A DNA stretch of 64,000 nucleotides from Emticicia aquatilis (GTDB lineage Bacteria; Bacteroidota; Bacteroidia; Cytophagales; Spirosomataceae): NCBI RefSeq assembly GCF_014644295.1, contig NZ_BMKK01000015.1:1-64000 (forward strand), read 5' to 3'. How positions within the stretch are numbered: position 1 is the first letter of the stretch; each line of letters begins with the position of its first letter. Positions 1 to 57,800 of this stretch are shown here, one piece after another. Position numbers and translations under genes: made by a program. The notes under the pieces were generated by a model. It saw nothing but the letters and a program-made list of their open reading frames with translations. It had not been told where the DNA came from and did no database searches.

Positions 1-1155
1 GGTCGTCAACAAGCCGTTGACAGCATATTTTGGTCTGTCAACAGCAATCTTCAGCATAAACTGTAATAAACATATCTTTTATGAAATCTGAGTATCAAGT
101 TCAACAGTAGAAAGGCTCGTTGCAGGCTTTGTTATCATTCTCTGAATCTTCTCTGTCAACAAACGTAAAACAGGCTGTCAACAAGCTGTTGACAGGCCGT
201 CAACAAACGTAAAAAAGTCTGTCAACAAGCTGTTGACAAACCGTCAACAAAAGTAAAAAAGTCTGTCAACAAGTGTAAAACAGGTCGTCAACAGGTCGTC
301 AACAAGCCGTTGACAGCATATTTTGGTCTGTCAACAGCAATCTTCAGCATAAACTATAATGAACATATCTTTTGTGAAATCTGAGTTACTGTACTCAACA
401 GTAGAAAGGATTGTTGCAAGCTTTGTTGCTATTCTTTAAATTTTCTCTGTCAACAAACCTAAAACAGCCTGTCAACAAGCCGTTGACAAGCCGTCAACAA
501 ACCTAAAACTGTCTGTCAACAAGCTGTTGACGAGCCGTCAACAAAAGTAAAAAAGTCTGTCAACAAGTGTAAAACAGGTCGTCAACAGGTCGTCAACAAG
601 CCGTTGACAGCATATTTTAGTCTGTCAACAGCAATCTTCAGCATAAACTATAATGAACATATCTTTTGTGAAATCTGAGTTACTGTACTCAATAGTAGAA
701 AGGATTGTTGCAAGCTTTGCTGCTATTCTTTAAATTTTCTCTGTCAACAAACCTAAAACAGGCTGTCAACAAGCCGTTGACAAGCCGTCAACAAACCTAA
801 AACTGGCTGTCAAGAAGCTGTTGACGAGCCGTCAACAAAAGTAAAAAAGTCTGTCAACAAGTGTAAAACAGGTTGTCAACAGGTCGTCAACAAGCCGTTG
901 ACAACATATTTTGGTCTGTCAACAGCAATCTTCCGCCCAAACTATAATAACCATATCTTTTATGAAATCTGGGTTATTGAGCTCAACAGTAGAAAGGCTT
1001 GTTGCAGGCTTTGTTTCTATTCTTTAAATTTTCTCTGTCAACAAACGTAATACAGCCTGTCAACAAGCCGTTGACAAGCCGTCAACAAAAGTAAAAAAGT
1101 CTGTCAACAAGTGTAAAACAGGTCGTCAACAGGTCGTCAACAAGCCGTTGACAAG
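1..1155. repeat. Nested tandem repeat array with GTCAAC/GTTGAC hexamers on an 11-bp lattice
   Basis: Long units start at 1, 294, 588, 882 and 1132 (periods 293, 294, 294, 250). The last full unit is shorter by 44 bp, which is four 11-bp steps. Inside each unit is a block of 22-bp repeats. I count 34 GTCAAC and 12 GTTGAC. Within one block they fall at 449, 471, 482, 493, 515, 526, 537, 559, 581, 592 and 603, every step being 11 or 22 bp. The other blocks (155-314, 743-902, 1037-1152) follow the same lattice. GTCAAC-N5-GTTGAC forms 17-bp dyads, for example at 5, 177, 221, 298 and 471. One extra hexamer per unit (37, 330, 624, 918) is off-lattice. A 22-bp period is not a multiple of three and stops are frequent, so the array is noncoding. 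It begins before the window. Function is unknown; a protein-binding array or a satellite-like expansion are both possible. Confidence 0.93.
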
Positions 1156-1686
1156 CAGAAAATTTATACGTCATCTTTTAAATATACGTTCAATAATTTA
1201 AAAATCACCGCATTTTACTTATCAAATTCGACTGCCAGTTTACATCAAACTTCCAAACTCATTTTTGAAAATAATTGACCGTTAACAAACTTCGATATAA
1301 TTTTCAAATTATTTTAATTTACAGTATCCAATTAGCCAAATGAGGTTTTGAATTTTAGTTTCAAAAAGGGTCGTTTGTTGTGTACTCATCTTGCTCAAAT
1401 GAAATTTAGTTTTTTACAACGTGAGTTGGTAATTTTTGACAATAAACTAAAGATGTATATTTTGAAATTTTCAAATTGATGCAAAAACATCAATTGCCAA
1501 ACTATATTAGCATTTCGTTACTATTTAATTAATTAAAATTTACACAAGTTATTGATAATCAGCATTCTAAATATTTTACGGAGTTTTCAATTGAAATATA
1601 TTTTTACTGTAGTGAGCATTTAAAACTGTTTCTTGAACTATATTACCCTGAACACGCTATTTGCCAAATTAAATAGACTGCAAATA
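1156..1686. other. AT-rich intergenic region without a recognisable gene
   Basis: This stretch lies between the repeat array and the 3' end of the GntR-type regulator. It is very AT-rich. I see no open frame of credible coding character on either strand, no RNA gene and no convincing terminator hairpin for the regulator. Confidence 0.6.
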
Positions 1687-2409
1687 TTATCCAACATTCT
1701 CAGCCGACATGATTAACCTTGCAAAATGATTTTCTAAATGATTTCTCATGGCATTTCTGAATAATTCTGGCGAGCCATTTTCAAGAATATCAACAAGTCC
1801 TTTATGTGAAACAAACTTCTTTTGTTCGAGCTGTTTTTGAAGTAAACCGCTATTATGCACATAATCAAAGATAGGCAATAACATTCTTTGAAAAGTCTTC
1901 ATGGTTTTATTCCCTGTAATTTCATACAATTTTCCATGAAATTTTATTTCGTGGTCAATATTAAAAAGGTGAGATTCGCTTGATAGTGGCTCATTCTTCA
2001 CAATTTCTTTCAATTCATTGATATCTTCTTTTGTTATTTTTTGAAAAATAAAATCTGCCATTCCAATTTCTAAAACCAACCTAATCTCAAAAATTTCTTT
2101 AAGCGTTTCTTGGTCGAGAATATGAGGATTCATGCTCTTACTCATGATTCCAAAAATATCAGGACTCGTGATAACCGAACCTTTCTTTTTCTTTGATTCA
2201 ATCAAACCCATTGTACGGAGCCGAGCCAGTGCTTCTCTAATAACAGTTCTACTTACGCCCAGCGTTTCCACTAATTCTATTTCCTTAGGAATGACATCCC
2301 CAACTTTGAGTTTTCGATTTTGTAGTAATTCGACCAAATTCGCCTCTACTTTATCTACCAGCGAGCTATTATCTACAGTTGTGAAATTATTAATTATATT
2401 ATCGACCAT
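1687..2409 (-). CDS. GntR-family (FadR subfamily) transcriptional regulator
   Basis: A 240-residue protein with an N-terminal winged helix-turn-helix at about residues 16-85, containing the family signature LGVSRTVIREALARLRTMGL. A FadR-type all-helical effector-binding domain (FCD) follows at about residues 90-235, with the usual metal or ligand histidines in the SESHLFNIDHEIKFHGKLYE region. FadR-type GntR proteins usually repress sugar-acid or sialic acid genes until a ligand binds. The gene is transcribed away from the SusC-led sialic acid operon with 289 bp between the starts, so it is the natural candidate regulator of that operon. An imperfect TATGT-N3-ATATA dyad lies directly upstream of its start codon, which suggests autoregulation. 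The family is secure. Control of this operon and the identity of the ligand are inferred from position. Confidence 0.9.
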   Translation of the reverse strand: MVDNIINNFTTVDNSSLVDKVEANLVELLQNRKLKVGDVIPKEIELVETLGVSRTVIREALARLRTMGLIESKKKKGSVITSPDIFGIMSKSMNPHILDQETLKEIFEIRLVLEIGMADFIFQKITKEDINELKEIVKNEPLSSESHLFNIDHEIKFHGKLYEITGNKTMKTFQRMLLPIFDYVHNSGLLQKQLEQKKFVSHKGLVDILENGSPELFRNAMRNHLENHFARLIMSAENVG

Positions 2410-2411
2410 AT

Positions 2412-2424
2412 TATGTATTATATA
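2412..2424. promoter_or_regulatory. Candidate regulator operator, autoregulatory copy
   Basis: TATGT-ATT-ATATA is an imperfect dyad with one mismatch to the perfect dyad at 2663-2675. It lies 3-15 nt upstream of the GntR start codon, between that codon and a CAAAATTA sequence (2431-2438) that reads as a TAnnTTTG -7 element on the minus strand. The surroundings are AT-rich, so chance is possible. Confidence 0.35.
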
Positions 2425-2631
2425 TTAAAACAAAATTAGCTAAAAAAAAGCTTATTGAAAAACATAGTAATTAATAAATATAATTTAACAAAAAAATCTT
2501 TGTGATATAAAAAAAGAACATATTATTTATAATTATACAGTTATTGTATGAATACAGGAGTATTTAATAGTAAAATCTTTCTTCAGATAATACCTAATTG
2601 CATAATTATAAAAATTTATTTTATAATTATT

Positions 2632-2661
2632 TTGATTTTTAAATAATACCTTTTAGTTTTG
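2632..2661 (+). promoter_or_regulatory. Promoter of the sialic acid operon
   Basis: TTG at 2632-2634 and TAGTTTTG at 2654-2661 match the Bacteroidota -33/-7 promoter pattern (TTG, then TAnnTTTG) with a 19-bp spacer. The predicted transcription start is near 2667, about 30 nt ahead of the SusC start codon. Confidence 0.6.
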
Positions 2662-2662
2662 T

Positions 2663-2675
2663 TATGTCATACATA
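2663..2675. promoter_or_regulatory. Candidate GntR/FadR-type operator at the sialic acid operon start site
   Basis: TATGT-CAT-ACATA is a perfect 5+3+5 inverted repeat whose centre fits the GT-N3-AC core of FadR-type operators. It begins inside the -7 element and covers the predicted transcription start, where a bound repressor would block initiation. A related imperfect dyad lies in front of the divergent regulator gene. Confidence 0.5.
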
Positions 2676-2698
2676 ATACATCAATCAAATTCTTTTCT

Positions 2699-5600
2699 AT
2701 GAAAAACCTTTATCCGAAAGTATGTATCATAATTGCCTGCTTTCTATTTTCAAATGCTTTGTGGGCACAAACAAAAAATATTACTGGAAAAGTAAAATCT
2801 GAAGACGAAGGTCAAGGTCTTGTAGGTGTCAGTATTTCAGTAAAAGGAAAGTCAGTGGGGACAATTACTGATAGTAATGGGGCTTTTTCGATAGCTGCAG
2901 ATGCAGGTGAAACTATTGTTTTTAGCTATATTGGTTATCAAAAAGAGGAAATTAAAGTTGGTAACTCTTCAATACTCAATGTTATATTAAAGCCTGATTT
3001 AGCTACCCTTAATGAAGTGGTAGTGGTGGGATATGGCACTCAAACTCGTAAAAATATCACCAGTTCTATCGGAAAACTGAATACCGAAGTACTTGCCAAT
3101 GCCCCACGAGCAAATGTTGGTGCTGCATTACAAGGCTCATTGGCTGGTTTGCAGGTAATCAATAGAAGTGGAACACCCGGTGCGGCTCCAAGTATTTTGT
3201 TAAGGGGTGGGGCTTCAATAAATAGCCCAGGAGCACCATTGGTGGTAGTCGATGGTGTTGTAAGGTCGCTTAATGATATTGCACCAGATGATATTGCCTC
3301 TATTGAATTATTGAAAGATGCTGCTTCAACAGCAATTTATGGAGCAAGGGCAAACAATGGCGTAATTTTAATTTCTACCAAACAAGGAAAAATAGGCACA
3401 GCTCAGGTTTCTTATAAATTCAATGCTGGTTACAACAAAAATCGTGAAGGCTACCAGTATATGAATGCCCGTGATTATATATATTATAATAGACTTGGAA
3501 ACCTCAATTCGCAACGAACCTTAGCACAAGTAAATGCTTCGAGAGGTTATGGTTTATTAACTGGGGCAGGAGATTTGGCACTTTTCGACATTCGACCGAA
3601 TAATGCAGCTAATGCAGGGCTTTTAGCTCAAGGTTGGGAAAGTTTAGACGACCCTTATGGTGGTTCGATTTTATTTAAAGACCATGGTCAGGAAGTTCAA
3701 GACTTGGTTTTTAGAAATACTCAAACCCAAGACCATTATATCAATGTTATGGCTGGAAATGATAGAGGTAAATATTTTGCAAGTTTTGACTATTATAATG
3801 AAGAAGGTGTAATCGTAGGTTCTGATTATAAGCGTTATACAGGAAATATCAATGGTTCTTATAAAATAAAACCTAATTTGGAGGTTTCTACGGGAGCAAC
3901 TTTTTCTACCTCAGCTCAACTTGGAGTTTTGGGCTCCGAAGTGAATACTTTGTATCGTAATTTGGCGATTTGGCCAACCATGAACCCTTGGTTAGATGCT
4001 GAAAAAACGCAACCAAATCCGGGCAATGGAATTAGCGATGGCAATCCTCTTTATTGGCTAAACAAAACTAAGAGAAGCAATGAAGTAAATAGAATCACCG
4101 TAAATGCTTCTGTAAAATATGATATTATAAAGGATTTGTATATCAAAGTTTCGGGCAATGCCTATTTATTTGAAAATATAGACCAGTCTTTTACACAAGC
4201 AACCCAAAACTATACAAATTTATATACTACTCCGCCATCGTTTAGTAGCACTACTCGAAATTCGATTTCAGCATTTTCAAGGTCAGTTCAACAACAATAT
4301 AACGCTATCATCAATTACAGTAAAACATTAGGCGAAAAACATAACATAAATGCGATGCTGGGGGCAGAACTTTTTGGAAACAAAGGCTTCGGAATGCAAG
4401 TTTTTGGTCAAAATGCACCAACTGATGATATTATTACAGCAAATGCATCGACATCGTTTGCCGCAGGAAGTAATTTTAGTTCAAGAGATGAATATAAAAT
4501 TCTTTCAAATTTCGGACGCTTAAACTATGATTATGATAGTCGCTATCTTTTAACTTTAGTTTACCGCCAAGATGGTGTTTCGAGCTTGGCAAGTAATAAT
4601 CGCTTCGGATTTTTTCCAGGAATGTCGGCAGGTTGGAATGTTCATAAAGAAAAGTTTTTCCAAAATAGTTTTCTTTCTAAATACATTACCTCTTTGAAAC
4701 CAAGATTTAGTTATGGGCAAAATGGAAATATTGCAGGAATTGGGAACTATGAAGTACAAGGAGTATATGGTTCACAAGGAAATTATAATGGGAGTCTGGG
4801 ATTTCTAAATACAGGAATTGTCAATAGTGATTTAAGATGGGAAAAAAGTAAAACGCTGGATTTAGGACTTGATTTAACCATTTTTAATAATCGCTTGACT
4901 TTTATGGTGGATTATTATGATAGACAAACCAGTGATTTATTAACAAATCTTACACTTCCAAGTTATGTTGGTTTTACTTCGGTTAGAACAAATTTAGGAA
5001 CGTTCCAAAATAAAGGATTTGAGTTTACGACAAATGCGATTGTTTTAAGAAAACCAAACGGTCTTGTCTGGGAAATTGGAGGTAATATAGCCTTTGTAAA
5101 AAACAAAATTCTACAATTACCTTTCAATGGTAACGAATTTAATCGTCAGGGTGGCTTACAAATTTATGATGCAGCACAAGGTAAAGTAGTTTGGGTAGGA
5201 GGTCTTCAAGAAGGGCAGCCTCTCGGAGCAATTTATGGTTACAAACAAGTATCAATATTTAAAAGTGCCGAAGAAGTAGCTCAAATTGCTGCAAATAGAA
5301 TAGATGCCATTGCTGGAATCGGTGGACCAAATACTTCGCAAGCTAATAAAATTACTGCTGGCGATGTAAATTGGTTAGATGTTGATAAAAATGACATTAT
5401 TGATTCAAGAGACCAAGTTTACCTTGGCAATATAAATCCGAAAGTTACAGGTGGTTTCACCACAAGTATTTCGTTTAAAGGAATTTCATTATTTTCTCGC
5501 TTTGATTTTGCATTAGGACATACCATTTATAATGATTTGGTAGCCCGAACATTAGGTAATTATCAGGGTACGTTCAATTATATGGAGCTACAAAAAAATG

Positions 5601-54842: not shown

Positions 54843-57800
54843 TTAATTACAACCACCAATTTCAGCTTTGAATACTGTACCAGCATCGGCTTTGAAACCT
54901 GGTGATAGTTGAATTGATTTAGCTTGATAAGTAACAATGGCGTTTCCTGTAATCTTATTTGATGCCTGAATACTTCCATTATTAGCATTAGCCTGTTTTA
55001 ACTGACTTCCCGTAGAGTAATCATCGGCTGTACTTACTAAACTTACTTGACTCAAACAAGGTCCAGCACTATTTACTGTAATAGTAGTGGCGGTTGAAAC
55101 AATACTAACACAACCATTAATTGTACAGGTTGCCATATAATTCGTTGTGCTTGAGGGAGTAACTGTCAAAGGATTGGCATTACTATTATTATAAGACCAT
55201 GTTATTACACCACTTGAACATCCATTAGCTGTAAGCGTTGAACTTTGACCAATAGTGATTATTGTAGGATTTGCCACAATAGTTGGAGCGGACGGTTTAG
55301 CATTTACAGTAATTGCAGTCGCATCGCTCACATCAGAAACACAACCAGCTATCGTGCAAGTTACGGTGTAAGATGAACTACTTGTTGGGCTAACCGTTAT
55401 GCTGCTACCTGTTAGTCCGCCTGTCCAGTTTAGCGTTCCTCCCGTACAAGCACTGGCAGTAAGGGTTGTGGAACTTCCACTACAAATGGTCGTTAAACTT
55501 GCCGTAGTTGTCGGCTTGCTTGGTTTAGTATTTACGGTAATTGCAGTCGCATCGCTCACATCAGAAACACAACCAGCTATCGTGCAGGTTACAGTGTAAG
55601 ATGAATTACTTATTGGGCTTACCGTTATACTACTTCCTGTCAACCCACCTGTCCAATTCAATGTTCCTCCTGTACAAGCACTTGCGGTTAGGGTTGTTGA
55701 ATTTCCACTACAAATGGTTGTTGAACTTGCTGTAATCGTTGGTTTGTTTGGCTTAGCACTTACGGTAATGGTAGTTGCATCACTCACATCTGAAACACAA
55801 CCAGCTATCGTACATGTGACGGTGTAGGATGAATTGCTTGTTGGGCTTACCGTTATGCTGCTACCAGTTAAGCCACCTGTCCAGTTCAGCATCCCTCCCG
55901 TACAAGCACTTGCGGTTAGAGTTGTTGAATTTCCACTACAAATGGTTGTTGAACTTGCTGTAATCGTTGGTTTGCTTGGTTTGGCATTTACGGTAATTGC
56001 AGTCGCATCGCTCACTTCAGAAGTACAACCAGCAATCGTGCAAGTTACGGTGTAAGATGAATTACTTGTTGGGCTTACCGTTATGCTGCTACCTGTTAAC
56101 CCGCCTGTCCAGTTAAGCGTTCCTCCCGTACAAGCACTGGCAGTAAGAGTTGTTGAACTTCCACTACAAATAGTAGTTGAACTTGCTGTAATGGTTGGTT
56201 TGCTTGGTTTGGCATTTACGGTAATTGCAGTCGCATCACTCACATCGGAAGTACAACCAGCAATTGTGCAAGTTACGGTGTAAGATGAATTGCTTGTTGG
56301 GCTTACCGTTATGCTGCTACCTGTTAATCCGCCAGTCCAATTAAGCGTTCCTCCCGTACAAGCACTGGCAGTAAGGGTTGTTGAACTTCCACTACAAATG
56401 GTCGTTGAACTTGTAGTAATGGTTGGTTTGCTTGGTTTGGCATTTACGGTAATTGCAGTCGCATCGCTCACATCGGAAGTACAACCAGCAATCGTGCAAG
56501 TTACGGTGTAAGATGAATTACTTGTTGGGCTTACAGTTATACTGCTACCTGTTAAGCCACCTGTCCAGTTAAGCGTTCCTCCCGTACAAGCACTGGCAGT
56601 AAGAGTTGTTGAACTTCCACTACAAATGGTCGTTGAACTTGCCGTAATGGTTGGCTTGCTTGGTTTGGCATTTACAGAAATATTTGTTCCATTATCTGCT
56701 CCAACAATCATCGGATTGCTTGATATTATTCTAATTCTATAACCATTCCCTGCAACTGTATTCGAAGGAATAGTAACATTTATTGTTCCTGAGTTTATGC
56801 CTGTCAATGTTCCAATCGAAACAGGATTTGCAAAACTTCCGTTAGCATCACTTAATTGAGCGGTGAAAATATTCCCTATATTAAATGTTTCATTATTGAA
56901 AACAAACGGTAAACTTACTGCCGATTCTGTACATAAATTTTGGGCTATCGTTCCAATTTCTATCACTGGGGCAGAAAGGCTAACTGTCTCGCTTCTAAAT
57001 TTTTTCCAGTTATTTTGAGGAAGTTCTTTTGCGATTGTTCCATCACCATAATAAATAGCATCTCCATTATCGACCAATAACTGAATATTGGTACTTGTAT
57101 TTAGATTTGTTGGTACTTCTACGATAGATTCAAAACTCCCTTCAACAACAATCGAACTCAAATTAAAACTTCTTTTGATGGGGTCGTCCGCAGGTTTTCC
57201 AGTCCATGTATAAAACTTGAAATCTTTTGGAGCAGTACCCGTTGCTGCATCGGCTGGTCCTGCAATTATTAAATATTCATTCGTATCATTTTTCCTGATT
57301 TCTCTAATACCTCTTTCACCAAGATTCAATTCTATGGGCGTTCCAAAAGTTGCCGAACCAATCGTTCCCCCATTAGCTGCCAAGATTGAAGTAAAATTAG
57401 TAACAGGTATAATAAGTGCCTTTTTGCGGTCGGCAGGTACAACCTGTGGAGCTCTAAAGGCAATGTAAGCAGTTGTATTATCAGGAGCCATTTCTATTCC
57501 TTCAATATTGAAGCCTTTTAATCCTGTACTTTCAGGTATTACACCAGCTGCTGCACTCGCCACTAATCCATAATAATTTGCTCCTTTTCCGTGTACATTA
57601 TTGGCATCCCATGCCAAAATATCATCCTTTAGAAAGTCATATCGGCTAACATAGGTTAAGGAAGTAGAAACTCCAGTTCCTGTAATATCTGTTCTGAATA
57701 CTCTATTTCTATTCGGTCGGTTATTGCCACTGGAAGCATTGCTTTCAGAACCCATCCAATAAATACTACTTCCAATTTTTAACGATGCTTCAATATCCAC

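Follow-up and report, generated by a model that had tools for sequence, protein, structure and literature searches.

A nested 11-bp GTYRAC tandem repeat found on one probable plasmid of a freshwater-type bacterium

The two ends of contig C15 (124,965 bp, in a 6.75-Mb genome of 36 contigs) together carry a nested tandem repeat that is, among everything we searched, restricted to this one plasmid lineage. The complete array comprises 72 exact GTCAAC or GTTGAC sites in ~1.79 kb, arranged in seven units, and both hexamers are CA/TG variants of a single diverged direct 11-bp repeat, GTYRACARGYY, with GTYRAC as its core. It lies in non-coding DNA of what is probably a large plasmid of a freshwater-type bacterium. 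Our main reading, to which we give a probability of roughly 0.38, is that this lineage-specific higher-order repeat is a multi-site platform for a putative protein, probably in plasmid maintenance, and that it has grown by satellite-like recombination. A functionless minisatellite is in our view equally likely.

If functional, this binding-site array on a native plasmid would be unusual among bacteria in its size and regularity, and it could help to find a new plasmid-maintenance or DNA-organising protein in Bacteroidota. If neutral, it would clearly exemplify a higher-order satellite in bacteria that keeps a regular phase without selection. The array further illustrates the origin, within a single bacterial plasmid lineage, of a higher-order repeat that has conserved cores.

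Extent and anatomy of the array

The window, i.e., the whole stretch of DNA that was analysed, is the left end of C15 (its first 64 kb). It contains 60 exact hexamers, compared with 25.1 +/- 4.9 in 100 shuffles, and 46 of them fall within positions 1-1152, as the first-pass annotation had counted. That annotation placed the array at 1-1155; it is real there, but larger, because it runs on into the opposite end of C15, where 26 further hexamers lie at 124,327-124,963. The tandem units of about 294 bp proposed at the same time were borne out by TRF, which reported a 294-bp unit (92% matches) in which periods of 11, 22, and 44 bp are nested. As the longest stop-free stretch of the array in any frame is 89 codons, it encodes no long repeat protein. 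Splitting the array joined across the C15 ends gave units U0 to U6: a partial U0, U1 of 250 bp, one unit of 293 bp, three of 294 bp, and U6, a 123-bp right-hand remnant. The features are as follows (window features are unstranded unless a strand is given).

C15:124,326-124,965 (outside the window): left-hand array part, 26 hexamers, with a degenerate left edge from 124,313
C15:124,570 (start): U1, 250 bp, without one internal 44-bp repeat
C15:124,820 (start): U2, its remainder (last sites and linker) at window 1..148, from the unit split
Window 1..1152: right-hand array part, 46 hexamers (TRF, hexamer counts, unit split)
Window 149..442: U3, 294 bp, a 12-hexamer block (155-335) plus a linker of ~107 bp
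Window 175..195: best dyad example, 9-bp arms, CTGTCAACA-AGC-TGTTGACAG
Window 443..736: U4, 294 bp (unit split, hexamer positions)
Window 737..1030: U5, 294 bp, with GTCAAG in place of one decayed site, as in U2
Window 1031..1153: U6, cut off at the right border, without one internal 44-bp repeat, like U1
Window 1153..1686: right flank of the array
Window 1687..2409, minus strand: GntR/FCD regulator, the first gene right of the array, reading towards it

The block consensus consists of fifteen consecutive 11-mers, of which 11 carry GTCAAC or GTTGAC in one register and the remaining four read TAAAAC or TAAAAA at the hexamer position; the twelfth hexamer of the block comes after a 21-bp step. 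Sites inside blocks are spaced by 11 or 22 bp. In addition, every unit extending into the linker (six in all) has a single 21-bp step, and two 33-bp steps (from 787 to 820 in the window, and in U2 in the tail of the contig) occur where a site has decayed to GTCAAG. The 11/22-bp lattice with one exception per unit that had been described before thus holds apart from these two additional steps. A view of GTCAAC and GTTGAC as two interleaved sets on opposite strands was rejected, as both share one 11-mer register. The 17-bp dyads that the first-pass annotation derived from hexamer pairs are present (GTCAAC-N5-GTTGAC) and arise where unlike hexamer variants adjoin; the folding score of one block as DNA (z = -4.4) is expected because of these dyads. 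With a helix turn of ~10.5 bp, 11 bp is not exactly one turn, so that sites would share one face of the helix over a few steps only and not, as had been suggested, throughout the 175-bp block.

The loss of exactly 44 bp with the phase kept, first noticed in the last unit, is real, but it affects two of the seven units (U1 at 124,570 and U6 at 1031), and the left-truncated U0 cannot be judged. It equals one internal 44-bp repeat of the block as found by TRF. Because the block holds such internal repeats, a recombination or slippage step of one repeat keeps the phase automatically, and preserved phase alone therefore does not show selection. The selection on spacing that had been offered as one of two causes is not needed, since tandem duplication in 44- and 294-bp steps suffices.

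The longest exact overlap between the ends of C15 is one base. Counting that base once carries the 11-bp register exactly across the ends, while joining the ends without overlap would make a step of 12 bp. C15 contains the unique sequence on either side of the array, and the array had no match on any other contig of the genome. Since the array lies at both ends and in phase, the simplest reading of the sequence is that C15 is probably a circular plasmid. We give very little credence to an assembly artefact, i.e., a wrong unit number or a wrong junction. In its favor, the contig break falls inside the array, the ends share a single base, and the unit pairs U0U1 and U2U3 are so much alike that identical units may be collapsed; the collapse once named as a refuting case may thus still have occurred. 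Against it, the two unique flanks lie on this one contig and the register is unbroken if one base is shared, and an artefact would alter copy number, not the repeat itself.

The C15 replicon and the occurrence of the array

Fifteen C15 proteins were scanned against Pfam or NCBIfam, and the replication and partition region was located as follows.

C15:92,871-93,734: ParB-position gene beside parA, no Pfam or NCBIfam match
C15:93,748-94,695: ParA (AAA_31, E 3e-48)
C15:94,981-95,739: Rep_3 initiator, rep1 (Pfam/NCBIfam scan)
C15:95,999-96,302: conventional 21-22-bp iterons, TAACTATCACYAATATGTCGTT, beside rep2
C15:96,346-97,725: Rep_3 initiator, rep2 (Pfam/NCBIfam scan)

The family scans also identified a serine resolvase and type I cas genes, including two cas6. 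Named plasmids of Runella, Emticicia, and Spirosoma carry relatives of the rep and ParB-position genes, and relatives of the ParB-position gene adjoin parA in related plasmids. A Rep1 relative lies at 95,817-96,572 in Emticicia oligotrophica pEMTOL02 and at the same coordinates in the same-genus contig G006:C6. The array is ~27 kb from rep2 and ~30 kb from parAB, and the GC skew of C15 showed neither an origin nor a terminus clearly.

Two different Rep_3 initiators thus stand side by side at C15:94,981-97,725. Plasmid pEMTOL02 and the related contig G007:C6 also have two adjacent Rep genes, but these are convergent, and the second Rep is only ~32% identical to rep2. In addition, a 31-nt perfect palindrome, AATCATAAGTGCAAATTTTGCACTTATGATT, occurs at C15:92,848-92,878 and 95,742-95,772, at the 3' end of the ParB-position gene in the first case and of rep1 in the second, and again beside rep1 in G004:C111. 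It is a candidate bidirectional terminator or parS.

Units scattered across the genome as a simple satellite, a case that the first-pass annotation had raised against its own reading, were not what we found: all eight blastn matches of one unit and all nine matches of a three-site pattern fell on C15. Among 58 genomes searched by blastn with the unit, only its own genome matched and none of the 57 others did (at most 12 first-look candidates were scored per genome). The three-site pattern was likewise found in the own genome only among 200 family genomes, and among 395 phylum genomes in two, the own genome with 13 matches and one other (G575) with one. Plasmid and phage collections gave no array match at E 0.01, the linker pattern was absent from viral contigs, and in Rfam the three matches at E 1 or lower all fell short of the gathering scores. 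The right flank (1153..1686), searched in 10 other genomes of the genus, had as its sole match 25 bases in one genome. Among the matches listed by literature searches, none describes such an array, and no paper pairing GTCAAC with ‘iteron’ was found.

In the genome contigs of 84,980 species, scanned without a control, the pattern occurred in 76 stretches over many phyla, while viral contigs gave 15 stretches against 14 for the reversed control; we therefore claim no dispersed family, and no widespread family of such arrays is shown. At least four lattice steps (with up to one mismatch per site) were present in 18 of the 91 loci from the two scans. Gene contexts inspected by eye for 21 of the 91 loci (including 13 of those 18) had no gene in common. 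Short 11-bp GTYRACA runs were observed in unrelated bacteria and one archaeon (L093:82-164, L059:6311-6382, L090:7671-7731, and L092:1637-1763), in differing contexts.

We further read 11 related replicons whole or nearly so (312 bp of pEMTOL02 were unseen, and C111 is an incomplete contig). None had more than two sites on an 11-bp lattice in 400 bp, compared with 11 in C15. Their other tandem repeats were CRISPR arrays, coding repeats, or short repeats, in comparisons of relatives that dropped rows below 40-60 bp or periods below 6-8 and, for the 11 replicons, also rows of the C15 CRISPR repeat. Such an array is lacking in G007:C6 (Rep1 69%, ParA 43%, and ParB 37% identical) and in pEMTOL02, so the array is no general need of the plasmid lineage.

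Variation among units and the competing readings

We sorted the columns of the unit alignment into classes and compared these after masking the degenerate left edge of U0. Variable columns numbered 1 of 72 in cores, 17 of 111 in spacers, and 26 of 107 in linkers; the linkers, earlier described as conserved, are alike between units through recent unit duplication but form the most variable class. The difference between cores and spacers (Fisher p = 0.0016) weakened when the U0 edge was unmasked (3/72 vs. 17/115, p = 0.027). Setting the TAAAAC/TAAAAA positions (2/24 variable) apart gave 1/72 vs. 15/87 (p = 0.0009), and adding them to the cores gave 3/96 vs. 15/87 (p = 0.002). When the core mask was slid through the 11 registers, the minimum of one variable column was at the true register, with two at a shift of one and 5-11 elsewhere. 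The first half of the block supplies most of the contrast (core 1/36, spacer 14/54), and in the second half both classes are nearly invariant (0/36 and 3/57). With a statistic resting on only seven units of shared ancestry, we take the lower core variation as a modest sign of constraint on the GTYRAC cores. However, 13 of the 16 variable on-lattice spacer columns show only letters found at the same phase in other 11-mers, so much of the spacer variation could stem from ectopic conversion between adjacent 11-mers; as such exchange cannot vary cores that are alike, the contrast could mimic constraint. The contrast between cores and the single-copy linkers is less exposed to this objection.

For the platform, we propose that the diverged unit GTYRACARGYY builds a higher-order tandem repeat specific to the C15 plasmid lineage, which would have grown by unequal recombination or slippage in 44-bp and ~294-bp steps. 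A putative sequence-specific protein would bind the GTYRAC cores side by side along the DNA, and the cores would be kept because it binds them. Cooperative assembly could then make the locus a multi-site nucleoprotein platform, most likely used in plasmid maintenance, i.e., as a centromere-like site or an incompatibility (copy-number titration) site. This proposal is supported by the 72 sites in ~1.79 kb on an 11-bp register, by the two Rep_3 genes and ParA on C15, and by the contrast between cores and spacers; because 11-mer exchange can explain most spacer variants, it stands only level with a neutral or selfish minisatellite. The latter would have expanded from an 11-bp repeat via 22/44 bp to 294-bp units with a unique linker, without function, in the gene-poor gap between two cargo modules. 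Its occurrence in one plasmid only, the block length changes by whole 44-bp steps in two units, and the spacer columns explicable by exchange all fit such an origin. So do the position of the array, ~310 bp beyond the end of the homology upstream of cas6 in three relatives, and the sporadic short GTYRACA runs in unrelated genomes (18/91 loci; viral 15 vs. control 14). Nested tandem units that change by whole repeat steps are shared with bacterial minisatellites and higher-order satellites, from which the array differs in that its cores vary less than spacers and linkers; under neutrality, point mutation should strike cores and single-copy linkers alike (seen 1/72 vs. 26/107).

A bolder version of the platform, which we regard as doubtful, is a new kind of plasmid centromere or copy-control site, in which a putative protein would polymerise on 11-bp GTYRAC repeats over ~1.8 kb, remote from rep and parAB. 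The nested, satellite-like layout resembles that of eukaryotic higher-order centromeric repeats. Among bacterial systems, parC of plasmid R1 (ParMRC) reportedly has 11-bp direct repeats bound by ParR. The array is like it in having sets of direct repeats on a one-turn step, split by a non-repeat stretch, but has several times more repeats and is not beside a par operon. Moreover, the NTPase of C15 is of ParA type, and no actin-like or ParR gene was seen on C15 (106 ORFs of at least 70 aa by eye, 15 proteins by family scan). For the R1 site, ‘ten direct repeats’ appears in a title in the reference list of PMC5016525. A Type I ParABS centromere of the sopC type calls for a ParA ATPase on the same replicon, and C15 encodes one, along with a gene in the ParB position; short inverted repeats inside longer iterons, as noted for sopC (PMC5016525), are a further likeness. 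By contrast, the array is nested at 11/44/294 bp, lies ~30 kb from parAB, and is missing in the plasmids with the closest ParB relatives: three Runella plasmids (ParB 51-54% identical, at which specificity may differ) have at most two lattice sites in 400 bp, compared with 11 in C15.

That the array represents ordinary plasmid iterons for Rep_3 replication control is very unlikely. Like the origin and incompatibility repeats of theta plasmids, it consists of direct repeats with a 21-22-bp step, and its replicon encodes Rep_3 initiators; no iteron cluster was seen directly upstream of rep1, only rep2 having a clear one. The iteron stretch has three copies of the 9-mer GTCGTYAAC and the array has 13 (as GTCGTCAAC), but three more lie elsewhere on C15, and an ungapped 16/22 iteron match to one unit was reached by none of 60 crude shuffles. 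In contrast to Rep_3 iterons, the array has many more copies, an 11-bp base unit, dyads, and interposed linkers, and it is far from rep2, which has its own iterons at 95,999-96,302. A weight matrix built from 16 iterons (nine from C15 and seven from G004:C111, thus covering rep2-adjacent iterons only) scored at best -4.8 in the array, compared with 28-40 for iterons, and 62% of 53 equal-sized C15 windows scored as high; the array thus does not share the repeats beside rep2. All 11 related replicons have a 65-181-bp cluster with a 20-22-bp period beside a rep gene, and none has such a kilobase array. The earlier likening to an iteron, centromere-like, or nucleoid-protein array therefore keeps the probable plasmid setting and the least variable cores on its side, but not the distance from rep2, the unlikeness to its iterons, or the absence from related rep/par replicons. 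In the features compared, the array fitted neither an iteron array nor a centromere shared with close ParB relatives; we file it in neither class, and it may still work like one.

The neighbouring genes offer two further readings. We see only a slim chance that the repeats are operators of a nearby regulator, which could be the WYL protein encoded in the cas operon or the GntR/FCD protein (sialic-acid genes). Both lie close to the array and the dyads would suit a dimer, but WYL shows 95% identity in G007:C6, where the array is absent, and no array was present in the 7-8 kb fetched around each of the closest two orthologues of GntR (86% and 82% identity). The homology upstream of cas6 in three relatives stops ~92 bases from the gene, short of the array, and a requirement for the array as cas operator was rejected on this ground. 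Somewhat less improbable is a transcriptional insulator. The GntR gene and the cas6-WYL-cas operon both run leftward with the array between them, and a minus-strand hairpin plus T run in each unit could act as tandem intrinsic terminators that block GntR read-through into cas6-WYL-cas. Ten of the 11 terminator-like sites of window 1-2700 are inside the array (1.0 +/- 1.1 in shuffles), where eight minus-strand hairpin-plus-T sites have -9.4 to -14.4 kcal/mol, compared with a background of 0.40 per kb per strand at -8 or lower in C15:1,201-97,800. Yet all but one of the eight hairpins are mediocre (-9.4 or -9.7) and represent one structure copied with the unit, the direct-repeat cores outside hairpins are equally conserved, and seven tandem terminators would be extravagant.

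Other repeats on C15 were recorded alongside the array. The CRISPR array at C15:97,863-111,265 is very long, with 204 repeats and 203 spacers, and the same kind of repeat is found near both ends of G007:C6. Comparison of the 203 spacers with the GTYRAC array gave no convincing match (one 12-base match to a sequence in two units), and the longest exact spacer match elsewhere on C15 was 16 bases. Among the cas genes, two ATPase-like ORFs that appear similar by eye flank a small ORF at C15:112,800-115,743; a relative of one of them on pEMTOL05 is named ‘ATP-binding protein’. Finally, a 228-bp tandem repeat of 6.1 copies at window 55294-56675 lies inside a 2,506-codon ORF and probably codes for protein repeats.
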